Shown: positions 28,345-53,646, counted from the stretch's first letter. The stretch: DNA of 53,646 nt from Phascolarctobacterium sp. (GCA_017623055.1 JAGAPX010000008.1:1-53646); one strand, 5' to 3'. Program-made: numbers and translations. Notes: generated from the letters alone by a model not told the origin.

Positions 28345-28367
28345 CAAATTAACATCTAATGAAGCAT

Positions 28368-28472
28368 TCTCATCTTACGTTACACGCAGGATTTAGCACC
28401 TTTTTGCAGACATCACTCTGCAAGGGTTGCTGCGGTTTCACAGGGCCATTCCCTCCACCGCTCTTGATGAGT
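28368..28472 (-). promoter_or_regulatory. SAM-I (S-box) riboswitch
   Basis: Read on the minus strand, the aptamer starts CTCATCAAGAGCGGTGGAGG and includes GGCCCTGTGAAACC, GCAGCAACC and GGTGCTAAATCC, and closes with GATGAG, pairing with the opening CTCATC as P1. All are hallmark S-box elements. A terminator follows 24 nt later, giving an off-switch at high SAM for metK and the NhaC-family gene. Confidence 0.97.
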
Positions 28473-28494
28473 AGTTTTAAAATTAACGTACCTA

Positions 28495-44676: not shown

Positions 44677-44709
44677 AAAAAGCCTGCCCCTGATTGCTCA
44701 AGGACAGGC
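44677..44709 (-). terminator. Terminator of the trpBA T-box leader
   Basis: GCCTGTCCTTGA...TCAGGGGCAGGC stem, then TTTTT, on the minus strand, just downstream of the T-box sequence. Confidence 0.88.
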
Positions 44710-44961
44710 GAAAATTACATTTACCTGCGGTACCACCTTGTTTCACTGCAATGCAGTGCTCTTTCGCAGAGTGCCAACACACCCCTCGTCCTTAACGCAG
44801 ACGTTACGTTAGCGGATACTCTCGTAAAAACGATTTCCCCGTACCCTCAACGGTCCATTTATCGAACTGCATCTCTATCCGGCTCCCAGCACCCCGAACT
44901 CTCTGTAAGCGCATCTTTCGACTTGATCTCCGTCTCAACGGTTTGTGGTTATTATTAAACT
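44710..44961 (-). promoter_or_regulatory. T-box riboswitch, tryptophan specifier (TGG)
   Basis: Minus strand: Stem I features AGAGAG and GGTGCTGGGAGCC (distal loop region), then the specifier segment ATAAA-TGG-ACC-GTTGAG (TGG at 44855-44857), then the conserved T-box AAGGTGGTACCGCAGG (44726-44740) followed by the terminator. Uncharged tRNA-Trp should pair with both sites and allow readthrough into trpBA. Confidence 0.95.
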
Positions 44962-49491: not shown

Positions 49492-49526
49492 TATAAAGAA
49501 GGCTGCTTGTCAAGAGCAGCCTTCGT
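49492..49526 (-). terminator. Terminator of the lyase-TRAP operon
   Basis: On the minus strand, a 10-bp stem GAAGGCTGCT/AGCAGCCTTC with a 7-nt loop, followed by TTTATATTTG. Confidence 0.8.
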
Positions 49527-49583: not shown

Positions 49584-50861
49584 TTATTTAACAACGGTAG
49601 GCAGCCAAGTTGCCAGTTCCGGGAACAGGCAGAGGATAAAGATGAGCACGAACATTGCCAAGCCAAAGGGAATAACACCTTTAACAATGTCAGTCATCTT
49701 GCTGTCCGGACTAATACCTTGCAACACGAAAAGGTTCATACCAACAGGCGGAGTAATGAGCGCCAATTCCAAGTTCAAGAGCATTACTACGTTGAACCAG
49801 ATGGGGTCGAAGCCAAGGCTCACAATCAGCGGGAACAAAATGGGCAATGTAATGAAGATAATGGAAACGGATTCCAAAATGCAACCCAAGAAGAGCAAGA
49901 GGCAGTTGATTGCAATGAATACTACCCAACGGCTGGTTTCCAAGCCTGCTACATAATTGGTCAATGCTTGCGGAGCATCCAAGATAGTCAGTACGAAACC
50001 GAAAAGGCTTGCACCAATCATGATGGCGAAAATCATACAAGTAGTTTTAATAGTATCGTTCAAAATCCCGGGCATATCCTTGAAGCTAAGAGTACGATAT
50101 ACGCAGAAGGTAATGAACAAGCTATATACAGTACCGATACCAGCTGCTTCAGTGGGAGTAAAGATACCGGTGTAGATGCCGCCTACTACGATGATGGGCA
50201 GGAACAAGCCCCAAATAGATTTTTTCAGAGCGCTGATGCGTTCATCCCAAGTAGCTGCTGCTTCGCGTTGTAAATTACGGGAACGGTAAACTACGATGGC
50301 AGTGAACATCAAGGTCATGATTACACCGGGAACAACGCCGGACATAAAGAGCTTACCAATGGATTCATCAGTAATTGCGCCGTAAAGAATCATGGGAATA
50401 GAAGGCGGAATCAAAATACCAAGGGTACCGCCTGCCGCTACTGCACCTAAAACTAACGGTCTATCGTAGCCACGAGCAAGCATTTCCGGAATAGCGATAG
50501 CACCGATGGTAACAGCGCAAGCTACGGAAGAACCAGTAATAGCTGCGAATACTGCGCAAGCCATAACGGTTGCAATGCCCAAGCCACCTGGCAAATGACG
50601 GAGCCATTTATTTGCCAGTTCGAAAAGATCGTTACCAACCTTACCGGTCAAAAGGATTTGGCTCATCAAAATATACATGGGAACAGCGGTCAATACAAAA
50701 TCATCAAGAGATTTGTAACCGATAATGGGAAGCTGCGCCAACGCACCGTCGCCACCCATAAAGAGAATCATACCGGCAACGCCACCCAAGCCTAAAGAAA
50801 AAGCAACGGGCAAACCAGAAGCCAAGAGGATTAAGAGTAAGAGAGTAAAGCCTACAATCAT
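49584..50861 (-). CDS. dctM: TRAP transporter large permease DctM
   Basis: The main membrane subunit of a tripartite ATP-independent periplasmic transporter. The 425 residues have about twelve spans. GLPVAFSLGLGGVAGMILFMGG and GGTLGILIPPSIPMILYG are DctM signatures, with a repeat near 355 (LITPPVGMNLFVLQG). The ATG overlaps the dctQ stop (ATGA) and has AAGGAGG upstream. Uptake of the captured acid is driven by an ion gradient. Confidence 0.97.
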   Translation of the reverse strand: MIVGFTLLLLILLASGLPVAFSLGLGGVAGMILFMGGDGALAQLPIIGYKSLDDFVLTAVPMYILMSQILLTGKVGNDLFELANKWLRHLPGGLGIATVMACAVFAAITGSSVACAVTIGAIAIPEMLARGYDRPLVLGAVAAGGTLGILIPPSIPMILYGAITDESIGKLFMSGVVPGVIMTLMFTAIVVYRSRNLQREAAATWDERISALKKSIWGLFLPIIVVGGIYTGIFTPTEAAGIGTVYSLFITFCVYRTLSFKDMPGILNDTIKTTCMIFAIMIGASLFGFVLTILDAPQALTNYVAGLETSRWVVFIAINCLLLFLGCILESVSIIFITLPILFPLIVSLGFDPIWFNVVMLLNLELALITPPVGMNLFVLQGISPDSKMTDIVKGVIPFGLAMFVLIFILCLFPELATWLPTVVK

Positions 50862-51385
50862 TTTGCTACCTCCTTCTCGAAATCATCTTTTTGGATTTTG
50901 TTAATATCAATCAACAAGGTTTTAATAATTTGCAGTAACAACACTGCCATACCGATAGGCATGGAGATTTGAGGAATCCACAGCGGAGTACCCAAGGTAG
51001 ACGGAGCGCAGTTATTGAACTCCAAGGAACGCATAGTCATTTCCCAAGCTTCTACTGCAAAGACGAAGCTGTAGAAAATACCTGCGATACAAGTTAAAAC
51101 TTCAATGTAGCAACGGGTCTTAGGAGAAAAATTACTTACAACCAATTCTACGTGAATATGCTTTTTGCCAGCATAAGTTACGCCCATACCCAAAAAGCCT
51201 GCTACAACAACACAATAGGTGGAAATTTCCATTACCCATTCAGTAGGAGCATTGAACACACCACGGCAGATTACTTCATATACAATCATAAAGCCTGTGA
51301 AGAGCACCAAGGTTCCTGCGATAACACCGCATAATTTTGTTATAGCGTTGACAAATTTTTCATAAGATTTAATGAAACTTTCCAC
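50858..51385 (-). CDS. dctQ: TRAP transporter small permease DctQ
   Basis: A 175-residue protein with four membrane spans. The DctQ block PTEWVMEISTYCVVVAGFLGMGVTYAGKKHIHVE, in part, lies at about 46-78. The start is GTG 51385, with only a weak ribosome binding site (GAGTG). It follows dctP across a spacer containing a strong stem-loop. Confidence 0.95.
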   Translation of the reverse strand: MESFIKSYEKFVNAITKLCGVIAGTLVLFTGFMIVYEVICRGVFNAPTEWVMEISTYCVVVAGFLGMGVTYAGKKHIHVELVVSNFSPKTRCYIEVLTCIAGIFYSFVFAVEAWEMTMRSLEFNNCAPSTLGTPLWIPQISMPIGMAVLLLQIIKTLLIDINKIQKDDFEKEVAK

Positions 51386-51394
51386 GATAACACA

Positions 51395-51430
51395 CTCATT
51401 TCTTAAATGAGCCGCCGGTTAAGGCGGCTC
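51395..51430 (-). other. Stem-loop between dctP and dctQ
   Basis: GAGCCGCC/GGCGGCTC with a 6-nt loop (51409-51430), next to a second palindrome CTCATTT/AAATGAG. No T run follows, so it looks like an mRNA-stabilising element at the dctP 3' end rather than a terminator. Confidence 0.65.
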
Positions 51431-51442
51431 TGGAAAAACTAA

Positions 51443-52450
51443 TTATTTTACGCAGATATCAATCAATTCTTGACCGAACTTGCCGTTTTCTTTAATGAAG
51501 AGATCCCAAACCGGTTTGGTAGCATCGCGCCAAGCTTGGAGTTCGTTTTCAGGAACTTCGTAAACTTCCATGCCTTTAGCTTTCAAGTCTGCCAATGCTT
51601 TCAGGTCTTCTGCTTTTGCGTTAGCACGAATCATGTCGCGAACTTCGAGAGCAGCTGCGTCGAGAGCTTTCTTTTGGTCAGCATTCAGTTTGCTGTAGGA
51701 TTTTTCGTTGATAGCAACGATGAATTCCGGGGAAGCATGGTTAGTAACGGTCAAATATTTATGAACTTCATACATTTTGCGGTCACGCATTGCGGTGGTA
51801 CCGGAGGTTTGGCCATCGATGGTACCACGTTGGATGCCCATGTAAACTTCGCTGGAGCCCATGGTTACGGAAGAAGCGCCCATAGCTTTGATGGTTTCAG
51901 CAGAGTATTTGCTGTAGCCACGGATTTTCAAGCCGTCAAAGTCAGCAGGAGTTTTAACCAATTTTTTGTTATTAGCATATTGAACGAAGCCATAGTCAGC
52001 CCAAATCAACGGACGAACGCCTTTTTTCAAAAGTTCAGCACCAAGTTTTTCACCCAAACCGCTGTCGATTGCTTTGTCAACTTTTTCATAGCTGGGGAAA
52101 ATAAAGGGAACGTCAAAAATATCCATTGCAGGAACGATAGTTGCCCAACGACCTACGGTGTTCAAGCCCATGTCGATACCACCGGAGATGATTGCGTCGT
52201 TCATATTTTTATCGTTGTACAATTGGCCAGCGGGATAAATCTGAATGGTAACAGAGCCTTTAGATTTTTCGTTAGCTTTTGCTTTCAAAGTATCCATTGC
52301 TTTTACCAGAGGATGGCTGGAAGGAAGAGCAGTTGCCATTTTCAAGGTAACTTTTTGGTCTGCCTTTTTATCTCCACCACCGCAACCTGCTACGGTCAAT
52401 GCCATTGCTGCTGCCAATGCTGCTACTGCGAATTTTTTAGTCCATTTCAT
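51443..52450 (-). CDS. dctP: TRAP transporter solute-binding protein DctP
   Basis: A lipoprotein signal, KKFAVAALAAAMALTVAGC, ends in a lipobox; it is then a DctP fold. The substrate-carboxylate arginine is in KIRGYSKYSAETIKAMGA (about 155-172) and IQRGTIDGQTSGT follows. The start is ATG 52450 (335 residues) behind AAAGGA. Family substrates are organic acids, including dicarboxylates and 2-oxo acids. The lyase encoded upstream and the leucine T-box are the only clues to substrate here. Confidence 0.95.
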   Translation of the reverse strand: MKWTKKFAVAALAAAMALTVAGCGGGDKKADQKVTLKMATALPSSHPLVKAMDTLKAKANEKSKGSVTIQIYPAGQLYNDKNMNDAIISGGIDMGLNTVGRWATIVPAMDIFDVPFIFPSYEKVDKAIDSGLGEKLGAELLKKGVRPLIWADYGFVQYANNKKLVKTPADFDGLKIRGYSKYSAETIKAMGASSVTMGSSEVYMGIQRGTIDGQTSGTTAMRDRKMYEVHKYLTVTNHASPEFIVAINEKSYSKLNADQKKALDAAALEVRDMIRANAKAEDLKALADLKAKGMEVYEVPENELQAWRDATKPVWDLFIKENGKFGQELIDICVK

Positions 52451-52507
52451 AATAAAACATCCTTTCCTTTCCTTTAAAGCCTTAGCTTTTCTTAACATTT
52501 AATATTT

Positions 52508-53371
52508 TTATTTATACTTTTTATCCAGCTCGTTATAGTCATTCAAGCCGATAAAATTATTAAACTGAGTAAAGTCTAGCATCTTATCCCTAGCTCCTAA
52601 GGTTGTGCCTTCGTCTCGCAAAGCTCTTAGCACTTCTGTAAATGCTTTGGTCACAGTGTAAACGGAGGTGCAAGGATAAAACACTACGTCATAACCGATA
52701 TTTTCCAAACCCTTAGCGTTAAGGTAAGGTGTTTTGCCACCTTCAATCATATTCGCCAAGAGGATTGTGTCTGGGAATTGCTTGCGGATTTCTTCCAGCT
52801 CCCATTCGTTTTGAGGAGCCTCCACGAAGAGCGCCTCTGCCCCACTTGCTAGGTACAGCTTGCCACGCTCGATAGCAGCGTCCAGTCCTAGGACAGCTCT
52901 TGAATCTGTGCGGGCAATGATGATGGTATCTTCATCTGTCTTTGCATCAACGGCAGCTCGCAATTTCTTAGCGTGCTCTTCTGCGTCGATAACCTGCTTG
53001 CCAGCCATATGACCGCAACGCTTGGGCCAAACCTGGTCTTCAAAAAGGATTGCGTCCGCTCCGGCAGCTTCATATTCACGAACGGTGCGCATTACGCTTA
53101 AAGCATTTCCGTAGCCTGTATCGCCATCTGCAAAAAGAGGAACATTTGCCGCACGCTTAATGCCTCGCAAGGCTTCTGCCATCTCCGTCATGGATAGGTA
53201 GCCAACGTCAGGCTCGCCCAATCTTGAAGCAGCCACACCGTAACCACCCATTACCAAACCTTCAAAGCCAACTGACAGGGCAATCTTGGCTGTTAAAGCA
53301 TCGTACACGCCCGGTAGCATCAAGATTTCCTTTTGCTTTAGCCTTTGGCGCAACGCCTTTCTCGTGTTCAT
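52508..53371 (-). CDS. Isocitrate lyase/PEP mutase-superfamily lyase
   Basis: A 287-residue Mg2+-dependent enzyme. The metal and oxyanion loop FADGDTGYGN is near residue 82, FEDQVWPKRCGHMAGK near 112-127 carries the catalytic KRCGH motif of methylisocitrate lyase-like lyases, and IIARTDS follows. It is closest by eye to methylisocitrate or 2,3-dimethylmalate lyases, which split a substituted malate or citrate-type acid to pyruvate or succinate plus another acid. RBS AAGGAG. It is the first gene after a leucine T-box and cotranscribed with the TRAP system. The exact substrate is unknown. Confidence 0.88.
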   Translation of the reverse strand: MNTRKALRQRLKQKEILMLPGVYDALTAKIALSVGFEGLVMGGYGVAASRLGEPDVGYLSMTEMAEALRGIKRAANVPLFADGDTGYGNALSVMRTVREYEAAGADAILFEDQVWPKRCGHMAGKQVIDAEEHAKKLRAAVDAKTDEDTIIIARTDSRAVLGLDAAIERGKLYLASGAEALFVEAPQNEWELEEIRKQFPDTILLANMIEGGKTPYLNAKGLENIGYDVVFYPCTSVYTVTKAFTEVLRALRDEGTTLGARDKMLDFTQFNNFIGLNDYNELDKKYK

Positions 53372-53391
53372 CTAAACATCTCCTTCAAATA

Positions 53392-53424
53392 TAAAAGCCC
53401 CTACCAGCATTGCTGATAGGGGCG
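53392..53424 (-). terminator. Terminator of the leucine T-box leader
   Basis: GCCCCTATCAGC-n3-GCTGGTAGGGGC stem (53397-53423), followed by TTTTATA on the minus strand. Confidence 0.85.
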
Positions 53425-53630
53425 TGGATACGCGGTACCACCCTAATATTATACTCAAAACCTTAACGCAGCCTCACGCTTTTCCCTACTCTCTTTCAGG
53501 AAAAGGGCTCGCGGGTGAGAGAAGATAAAACCAACCTTTCAGCTTGCACCAACCGCTGAATCTCTAAGACGTGCTTTTATTTCATTCCCGTTCATCGCTT
53601 CTACAATGTTACATTTTTGTTTCAAAAATT
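53425..53630 (-). promoter_or_regulatory. T-box riboswitch, leucine specifier (CTC)
   Basis: Minus strand: Stem I begins GAAGCGATGAACGGGAATGA and includes the distal AGAGATTCAGCGGTTGGTGCAAGC. The specifier segment is TCT-CTC-ACC-CGCGAG (CTC at 53517-53519), the same frame of signals (triplet-ACC-N3-GAG) as the Trp leader in this window. GCGTTAAGG follows, then the T-box AGGGTGGTACCGCG (53431-53445) and terminator. A TATACT box at 53637-53642 is a likely -10; the -35 would be outside the window. Confidence 0.92.
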
Positions 53631-53646
53631 AAACATAGTATAACAA

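Follow-up and report, generated by a model that had tools for sequence, protein, structure and literature searches.

Leucine T-boxes such as that of the B. subtilis ilv-leu operon (RF00230) combine a Stem I, a CUC specifier, a UGGU bulge, an antiterminator and a terminator, and they control leucine supply; the genes they govern encode biosynthetic enzymes for amino acids, a synthetase or an amino acid permease. In TBDB, 74% of Leu specifiers are CUC, more than any other codon (PMC7778990). The transporters listed as T-box-controlled in PMC2494555 belong to the ABC, APC, LIVCS, MFS, NSS, NHAC and DAACS families, TRAP not being among them, and their usual cargo is the cognate amino acid. TRAP transporters of the DctP type (SiaP, DctP, 4p47 and others) consist of DctP, DctQ and DctM, with a Lys-x-Arg in the binding protein. 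The petal death protein and the 2,3-dimethylmalate, methylisocitrate and isocitrate lyases belong to one fold family and share an Asp metal site.

The locus described here shares features with each of these systems. The window, i.e., the whole stretch of DNA that was analysed (53,646 nucleotides), corresponds to contig C39; the genome, 1.72 Mb in size and 98% complete, is a Phascolarctobacterium-like Acidaminococcaceae MAG whose nearest named relatives among the matches listed are Phascolarctobacterium MAGs of the Acidaminococcaceae. Its leader has the parts of a Leu T-box and would likewise control leucine supply, whereas what it governs is a TRAP transporter together with an ICL/PEPM lyase. 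Charged-tRNA control is common to the operon and the T-box-controlled transporters of PMC2494555, whereas the TRAP type does not appear in that list. No description of a T-box–TRAP–lyase module was found in the open-access literature, where isopropylmalate with TRAP and the petal death protein were also looked for. The features are as follows.

53638-53643, minus strand: likely -10 element, TATACT, by sequence; the -35 lies beyond the window end
53397-53604, minus strand: T-box leader (Stem I, antiterminator, terminator), by Rfam RF00230 and covariation in 25 leaders
53517-53519, minus strand: specifier triplet CUC (Leu), calibrated on the 10 other T-boxes of the genome; tRNA-Leu(GAG) encoded
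53431-53444, minus strand: T-box motif AGGGUGGUACCGCG, by sequence; invariant across 25 aligned leaders
53397-53423, minus strand: intrinsic terminator of the leader, 12-pair stem and T run, with compensatory changes
52508-53371, minus strand: lyase of the isocitrate lyase/PEP mutase superfamily, 287 aa (PF13714, E 1.6e-42)
51443-52450, minus strand: dctP, TRAP substrate-binding lipoprotein of the subfamily with motif DG-Q-[T/S/I]-S-G (PF03480, E 2.7e-77)
50858-51385, minus strand: dctQ, TRAP small permease (PF04290)
49584-50861, minus strand: dctM, TRAP large permease (PF06808, E 3.4e-106; TIGR00786 above cut-off)
49498-49524, minus strand: terminator closing the operon before typA, 10-pair stem and T run

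Pfam and NCBIfam confirm the lyase, DctP, DctQ and DctM, and the TRAP transporter is complete. The typA gene has its own consensus promoter (49569-49541).

The leader and its specifier

The sequence-only reading had described a complete T-box leader before the lyase and dctPQM, and the covariance model bears this out: RF00230 matches at full length at 53604-53415 (minus strand; model positions 1-219), with 97 bits against a gathering threshold of 93 and E 3.7e-20. Folded as a single sequence, the leader is unremarkable (z -1.15), so the case for structure is made by the covariance-model score and by covariation across relatives, where compensatory changes are seen in 21 of 35 consensus pairs among 25 aligned leaders. 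The relatives' aligned leaders also carry TTGACA about 17 nt 5′ of the -10 element, the right distance for a -35 element.

The specifier had been read as CTC followed by ACC-N3-GAG, which fits as ACC, CGC, GAG; directly 3′ of CTC (53519-53517) stands an A, then CCCG, which pairs with CGGG at the base of Stem I. As a rule for reading specifiers, the triplet was taken to end one spacer base short of the strand that forms the Stem I base helix. The host genome has eleven full T-boxes, this leader included, and in all ten others the rule returns the codon expected for the leader's own gene (leuC CUC, valS GUA, pheS UUC, ileS AUC, ilvB AUC, glyQ GGC, trpD UGG, trpB UGG, thrS ACC and serC UCC). The same rule gives CUC for the lyase-dctPQM leader, and tRNA-Leu(GAG) is encoded in the host genome (locus L237). 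The UGGU of the T-box complements the ACCA of a tRNA with discriminator A, whereas the glyQ and thrS T-boxes of the same genome carry UGGA. The claimed leucine specificity is upheld by the calibrated rule, the encoded tRNA and the conservation of Leu specifiers described below. By sequence criteria, i.e., a full RF00230 match, a Leu specifier with its cognate tRNA and an alternative terminator, the leader is a Leu-specific transcriptional T-box. Uncharged tRNA-Leu(GAG) would pair with the CUC specifier and the UGGU bulge, upon which the antiterminator would form and lyase-dctPQM would be transcribed.

Two further leaders lie in the window. A second T-box with specifier UGG (Trp) stands before trpB (44697-44947, minus strand), a closely similar leader being found before trpD on contig C23, and a SAM riboswitch (RF00162, 85.6 bits; 28367-28473, minus strand) lies 5′ of an apparent metK, which is an ordinary arrangement.

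Conservation of the operon in Negativicutes

Lyase orthologues were sought in the host family and class and their neighbourhoods compared; many of the compared genomes are drafts, on which the absence calls rest. The same order of leader, lyase and dctPQM, suggested earlier as something to look for in related genomes, recurs as T-box-lyase-dctP-dctQ-dctM in 21 genomes, this one counted, from five Negativicutes families (f1, f24, f25, f27 and f32); all leaders read CUC, and in a few of the genomes the locus is cut by a contig end. At L188/L091 (Sporomusaceae SM1-B11.1, family f30), a single CUC T-box heads leuA-leuC-leuD-leuB-lyase-dctP-dctQ-dctM, with a leuA that scores above the leuA_bact cut-off. 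In G032, a genome of the Acidaminococcaceae, the gene next after the lyase is an ilvD that scores above its equivalog cut-off. Outside a Dialister-like genus, the specifier is Leu in 41 of 41 leaders before lyase-dctPQM, leu-lyase-dctPQM or dctPQM, this one counted. Across the class, DctP occurs in 38 of the 40 genomes with a lyase orthologue versus 35 of 340 others.

Going by family-level names, this would be a common catabolic operon, for C4-dicarboxylates or of the methylisocitrate type, with a T-box gained by chance. However, a Leu or Val specifier is kept in 48 leaders while their helices vary, the lyase and transporter are fused to a leu operon, and the lyase falls below all equivalog cut-offs, so that this explanation is already disfavoured and, to us, highly improbable.

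The transporter also occurs under leucine control by itself. DctP orthologues (E up to 1e-75), sought across Negativicutes, are found in 73 of 380 genomes. In 19 genomes a Leu T-box (16 CUC, 3 CUG) stands directly before a dctPQM that does not adjoin the lyase, and some of these genomes, Acidaminococcaceae among them, have no lyase at all; the transporter would therefore serve leucine supply even without the lyase. No T-box was seen at twelve Selenomonadaceae-like DctP loci and at a few loci cut by contig ends. The leucine-salvage idea of the sequence-only reading thus survives in part. Its view that lyase and TRAP take part in supplying a branched-chain precursor is supported by the conserved Leu specifiers, the leuACDB fusion, the ilvD adjacency, the joint presence with leuCDB in genomes lacking leuA and the switch to Val (below), whereas its order of import followed by lyase action when leucine is short is not general, because of the 19 genomes with the TRAP operon under a Leu T-box and no adjoining lyase.

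These 19 genomes, some lacking the lyase, would also suit a transporter of leucine or branched-chain amino acids themselves, with the lyase as a loosely linked passenger, and cognate amino acids are the usual cargo of transporters under T-box control (PMC2494555). However, a leucine importer should not vanish along with leuCDB and the lyase, as happens in the Dialister-like family, and the strong class-wide co-occurrence of lyase and DctP and the likeness of DctP to organic-acid binding proteins also argue against amino acid cargo, which we consider quite unlikely.

Several variants of the arrangement were noted. At L056 (genome G011), lyase-dctPQM-typA is kept and the T-box is gone, a short leader with a terminator-like hairpin remaining. 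Tandem T-boxes, in which one Stem I is followed by two successive antiterminator/terminator units with no second Stem I between them, occur 5′ of the lyase in L190, L192 and L095 and 5′ of leuC in L244-L246.

The lyase and the TRAP transporter

The lyase matches PF13714 and PF00463 and keeps the metal-site Asp and the KRCGH loop, making it a member of the ICL/PEPM superfamily; residues D84, C119 and R154 are invariant. In NCBIfam it scores under the cut-offs of all equivalog models for isocitrate lyase, methylisocitrate lyase and PEP mutase, reaching 288.9 bits against 354.4 for prpB (methylisocitrate lyase, TIGR02317) and 65.6 against 275.9 for isocitrate lyase (TIGR01346). Here "isocitrate lyase" and "C4-dicarboxylate" name families and nothing more. 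The lyase has a Phe where isocitrate lyase has Trp and methylisocitrate lyase has Phe, a hint that the product may be a 2-oxo acid and not glyoxylate.

The best solved relative is the petal death protein (1zlp), with which the lyase shares ANMIEGGKTP; the loop is KKCGH in the petal death protein versus KRCGH in the lyase. In the tree, however, 1zlp does not fall within the group of bacterial and archaeal lyases, and membership in the petal death protein group is unsupported. In the same tree, the lyase groups with none of PrpB, the petal death protein and the fungal dimethylmalate lyase. The lyases of the Leu-controlled group make up a single clade (support 0.88); its sister (support 0.97) comprises Succiniclasticum and Dialister lyases, including the Val-controlled ones.

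On the transporter side, the complete DctP, DctQ and DctM set and the Lys-x-Arg of the binding protein are common to the operon and the described DctP-type systems, and DctP resembles organic-acid binding proteins. The motif Q-[T/S/I]-S-G occurs in 41 of 42 DctP orthologue matches, the remaining one reading LTSG, whereas the five solved DctP relatives compared carry an ENP motif (QENP or AENP) where the orthologues read [T/S/I]-S-G. A DctP structure predicted from nine sequences (pLDDT 67.5) was too poor for a fold search.

Dialister-like genomes and the branched-chain node

A further variant comes from the Dialister-like family f32, which, like the Selenomonadaceae-like f20, was assigned from named relatives and gene content. 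In genus g91 and Dialister sp. UBA7295, the lyase is a solitary gene and dctPQM is found elsewhere, and 7 of 7 leaders read GUC (Val), with the leuCDB of the family under CUC specifiers. A specifier other than Leu in homologous leaders had been named beforehand as evidence against leucine control; it was found only in this Dialister-like genus, where it is Val, likewise made from 2-oxoisovalerate, the precursor common to Leu and Val, and it is Leu elsewhere. Of the 12 f32 genomes, 7 have leuC, the lyase and DctP together and the other 5 have none of the three (leuC versus lyase, Fisher p 0.0013, uncorrected for ancestry and drawn from draft genomes). All seven lyase-bearing f32 genomes lack leuA, the only match left being a pyruvate carboxylase-sized one of about 1150 aa, and ilvD is absent in 6 of 6 tested; the leuC-leuD-leuB operon is intact in 7 of 7. 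An exception in the other direction is G330 (75% complete), in which a leuA-like gene is present and leuC is absent. The retention of leuCD points to an entry at 2-isopropylmalate. In one locus (L084, 8315-9076), an azlC-like branched-chain exporter gene lies directly 3′ of leuCDB, under that genome's Leu T-box.

The host genome of the window also has leuA (PRK03739, 748.7 bits), leuCDB and ilvD. A plain replacement of LeuA in this host was thus rejected, and the operon is auxiliary in most host genomes, this one too, because these genes are present there.

We favour, with somewhat better than even confidence, the explanation that the Leu T-box operon provides leucine (and valine) synthesis with a branched-chain precursor, which enters at the 2-oxoisovalerate/2-isopropylmalate node. 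DctPQM would import a branched carboxylic acid of this node, 2-isopropylmalate or 2-oxoisovalerate, and the lyase would interconvert 2-isopropylmalate with 2-oxoisovalerate and acetate, tying the external precursor to LeuCDB. Since the arrangement is conserved across the class and tied to leucine synthesis, its probable role is to channel a branched-chain precursor towards leucine. The lyase is placed at this step because the step is missing where leuCDB survives without leuA, and because it touches both amino acids whose tRNAs control the lyase. We infer the TRAP substrate, the lyase reaction and its direction from gene content and context, and the solved lyase relatives act on several different acids, a point against this explanation.

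Two versions of the preferred explanation can be distinguished, each of which misfits one fact. First, the TRAP transporter may import 2-isopropylmalate or a close alkylmalate, which LeuCDB would convert to leucine and the lyase would cleave to 2-oxoisovalerate and acetate for valine. This would be a natural extension of the malate-type TRAP family, and it explains leuCDB without leuA and without ilvD, the Val control of lyase and TRAP beside the Leu control of leuCDB in Dialister-like genomes, and the lyase adjoining ilvD, another source of 2-oxoisovalerate. However, the lyase would divert substrate from leucine in Leu-controlled lineages, where cleavage is wasteful under Leu starvation; we regard this version as possible, if rather unlikely. 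Second, the TRAP transporter may import 2-oxoisovalerate, the lyase being an acetate-dependent, CoA-free isopropylmalate synthase that replaces or assists LeuA. TRAP proteins can bind 2-oxo acids, and a synthase would be consistent with the absence of leuA where the lyase and leuCDB are kept, with a lyase inside a leu operon or adjoining ilvD, and with leucine being the amino acid that governs lyase and TRAP in most lineages. However, synthesis from 2-oxoisovalerate and acetate suits a Val-controlled lyase poorly, since using up 2-oxoisovalerate under Val control makes little sense, and condensation from free acetate is uphill unless pulled by LeuCDB; the synthase is in our judgement doubtful. 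Overall, 2-isopropylmalate would fit the Val-controlled lineage better and 2-oxoisovalerate the Leu-controlled lineages. A third route, from isovalerate and glyoxylate to 3-isopropylmalate, is disfavoured because leuC and leuD would be needless there, whereas both are kept with leuB where leuA is gone.

For the Dialister-like Negativicutes, we tentatively propose, at a little under even confidence, that leucine is made without LeuA and IlvD: the lyase would connect 2-oxoisovalerate, acetate and 2-isopropylmalate, and the TRAP importer would supply the missing acid, under Leu or Val T-boxes. Such a LeuA-independent, CoA-free entry would be auxiliary in Phascolarctobacterium and its relatives. 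If the precursor-supply explanation is true, a TRAP subfamily and a branch of ICL/PEPM lyases gain a function, and T-boxes govern precursor import besides amino acid import. It would also explain leucine synthesis in gut bacteria with leuCDB and without leuA, possibly through cross-feeding on neighbours' branched acids. The candidate ligands left are few, and the question is hence decidable by simple binding and enzyme assays.

Related lyases were also seen in other settings. In Synergistaceae (L104, L136), dctPQM lies beside two such lyases in independent neighbourhoods, with leuABCD divergent nearby in L104, and a Pseudomonadota locus (L153) reads leuC-leuD-leuB-lyase-dctP; these loci suggest that the lyase–TRAP association reaches beyond Negativicutes. 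Sporomusa-like loci (L194-L199) carry lyases of about 50% identity some 6 kb 3′ of leuCD-like genes, possibly in a dimethylmaleate or nicotinate-type pathway. Viral contigs yielded one related lyase only, and Thaumarchaeota commonly have a 46-50% identical lyase (L099, L106, L122 and other archaeal loci).
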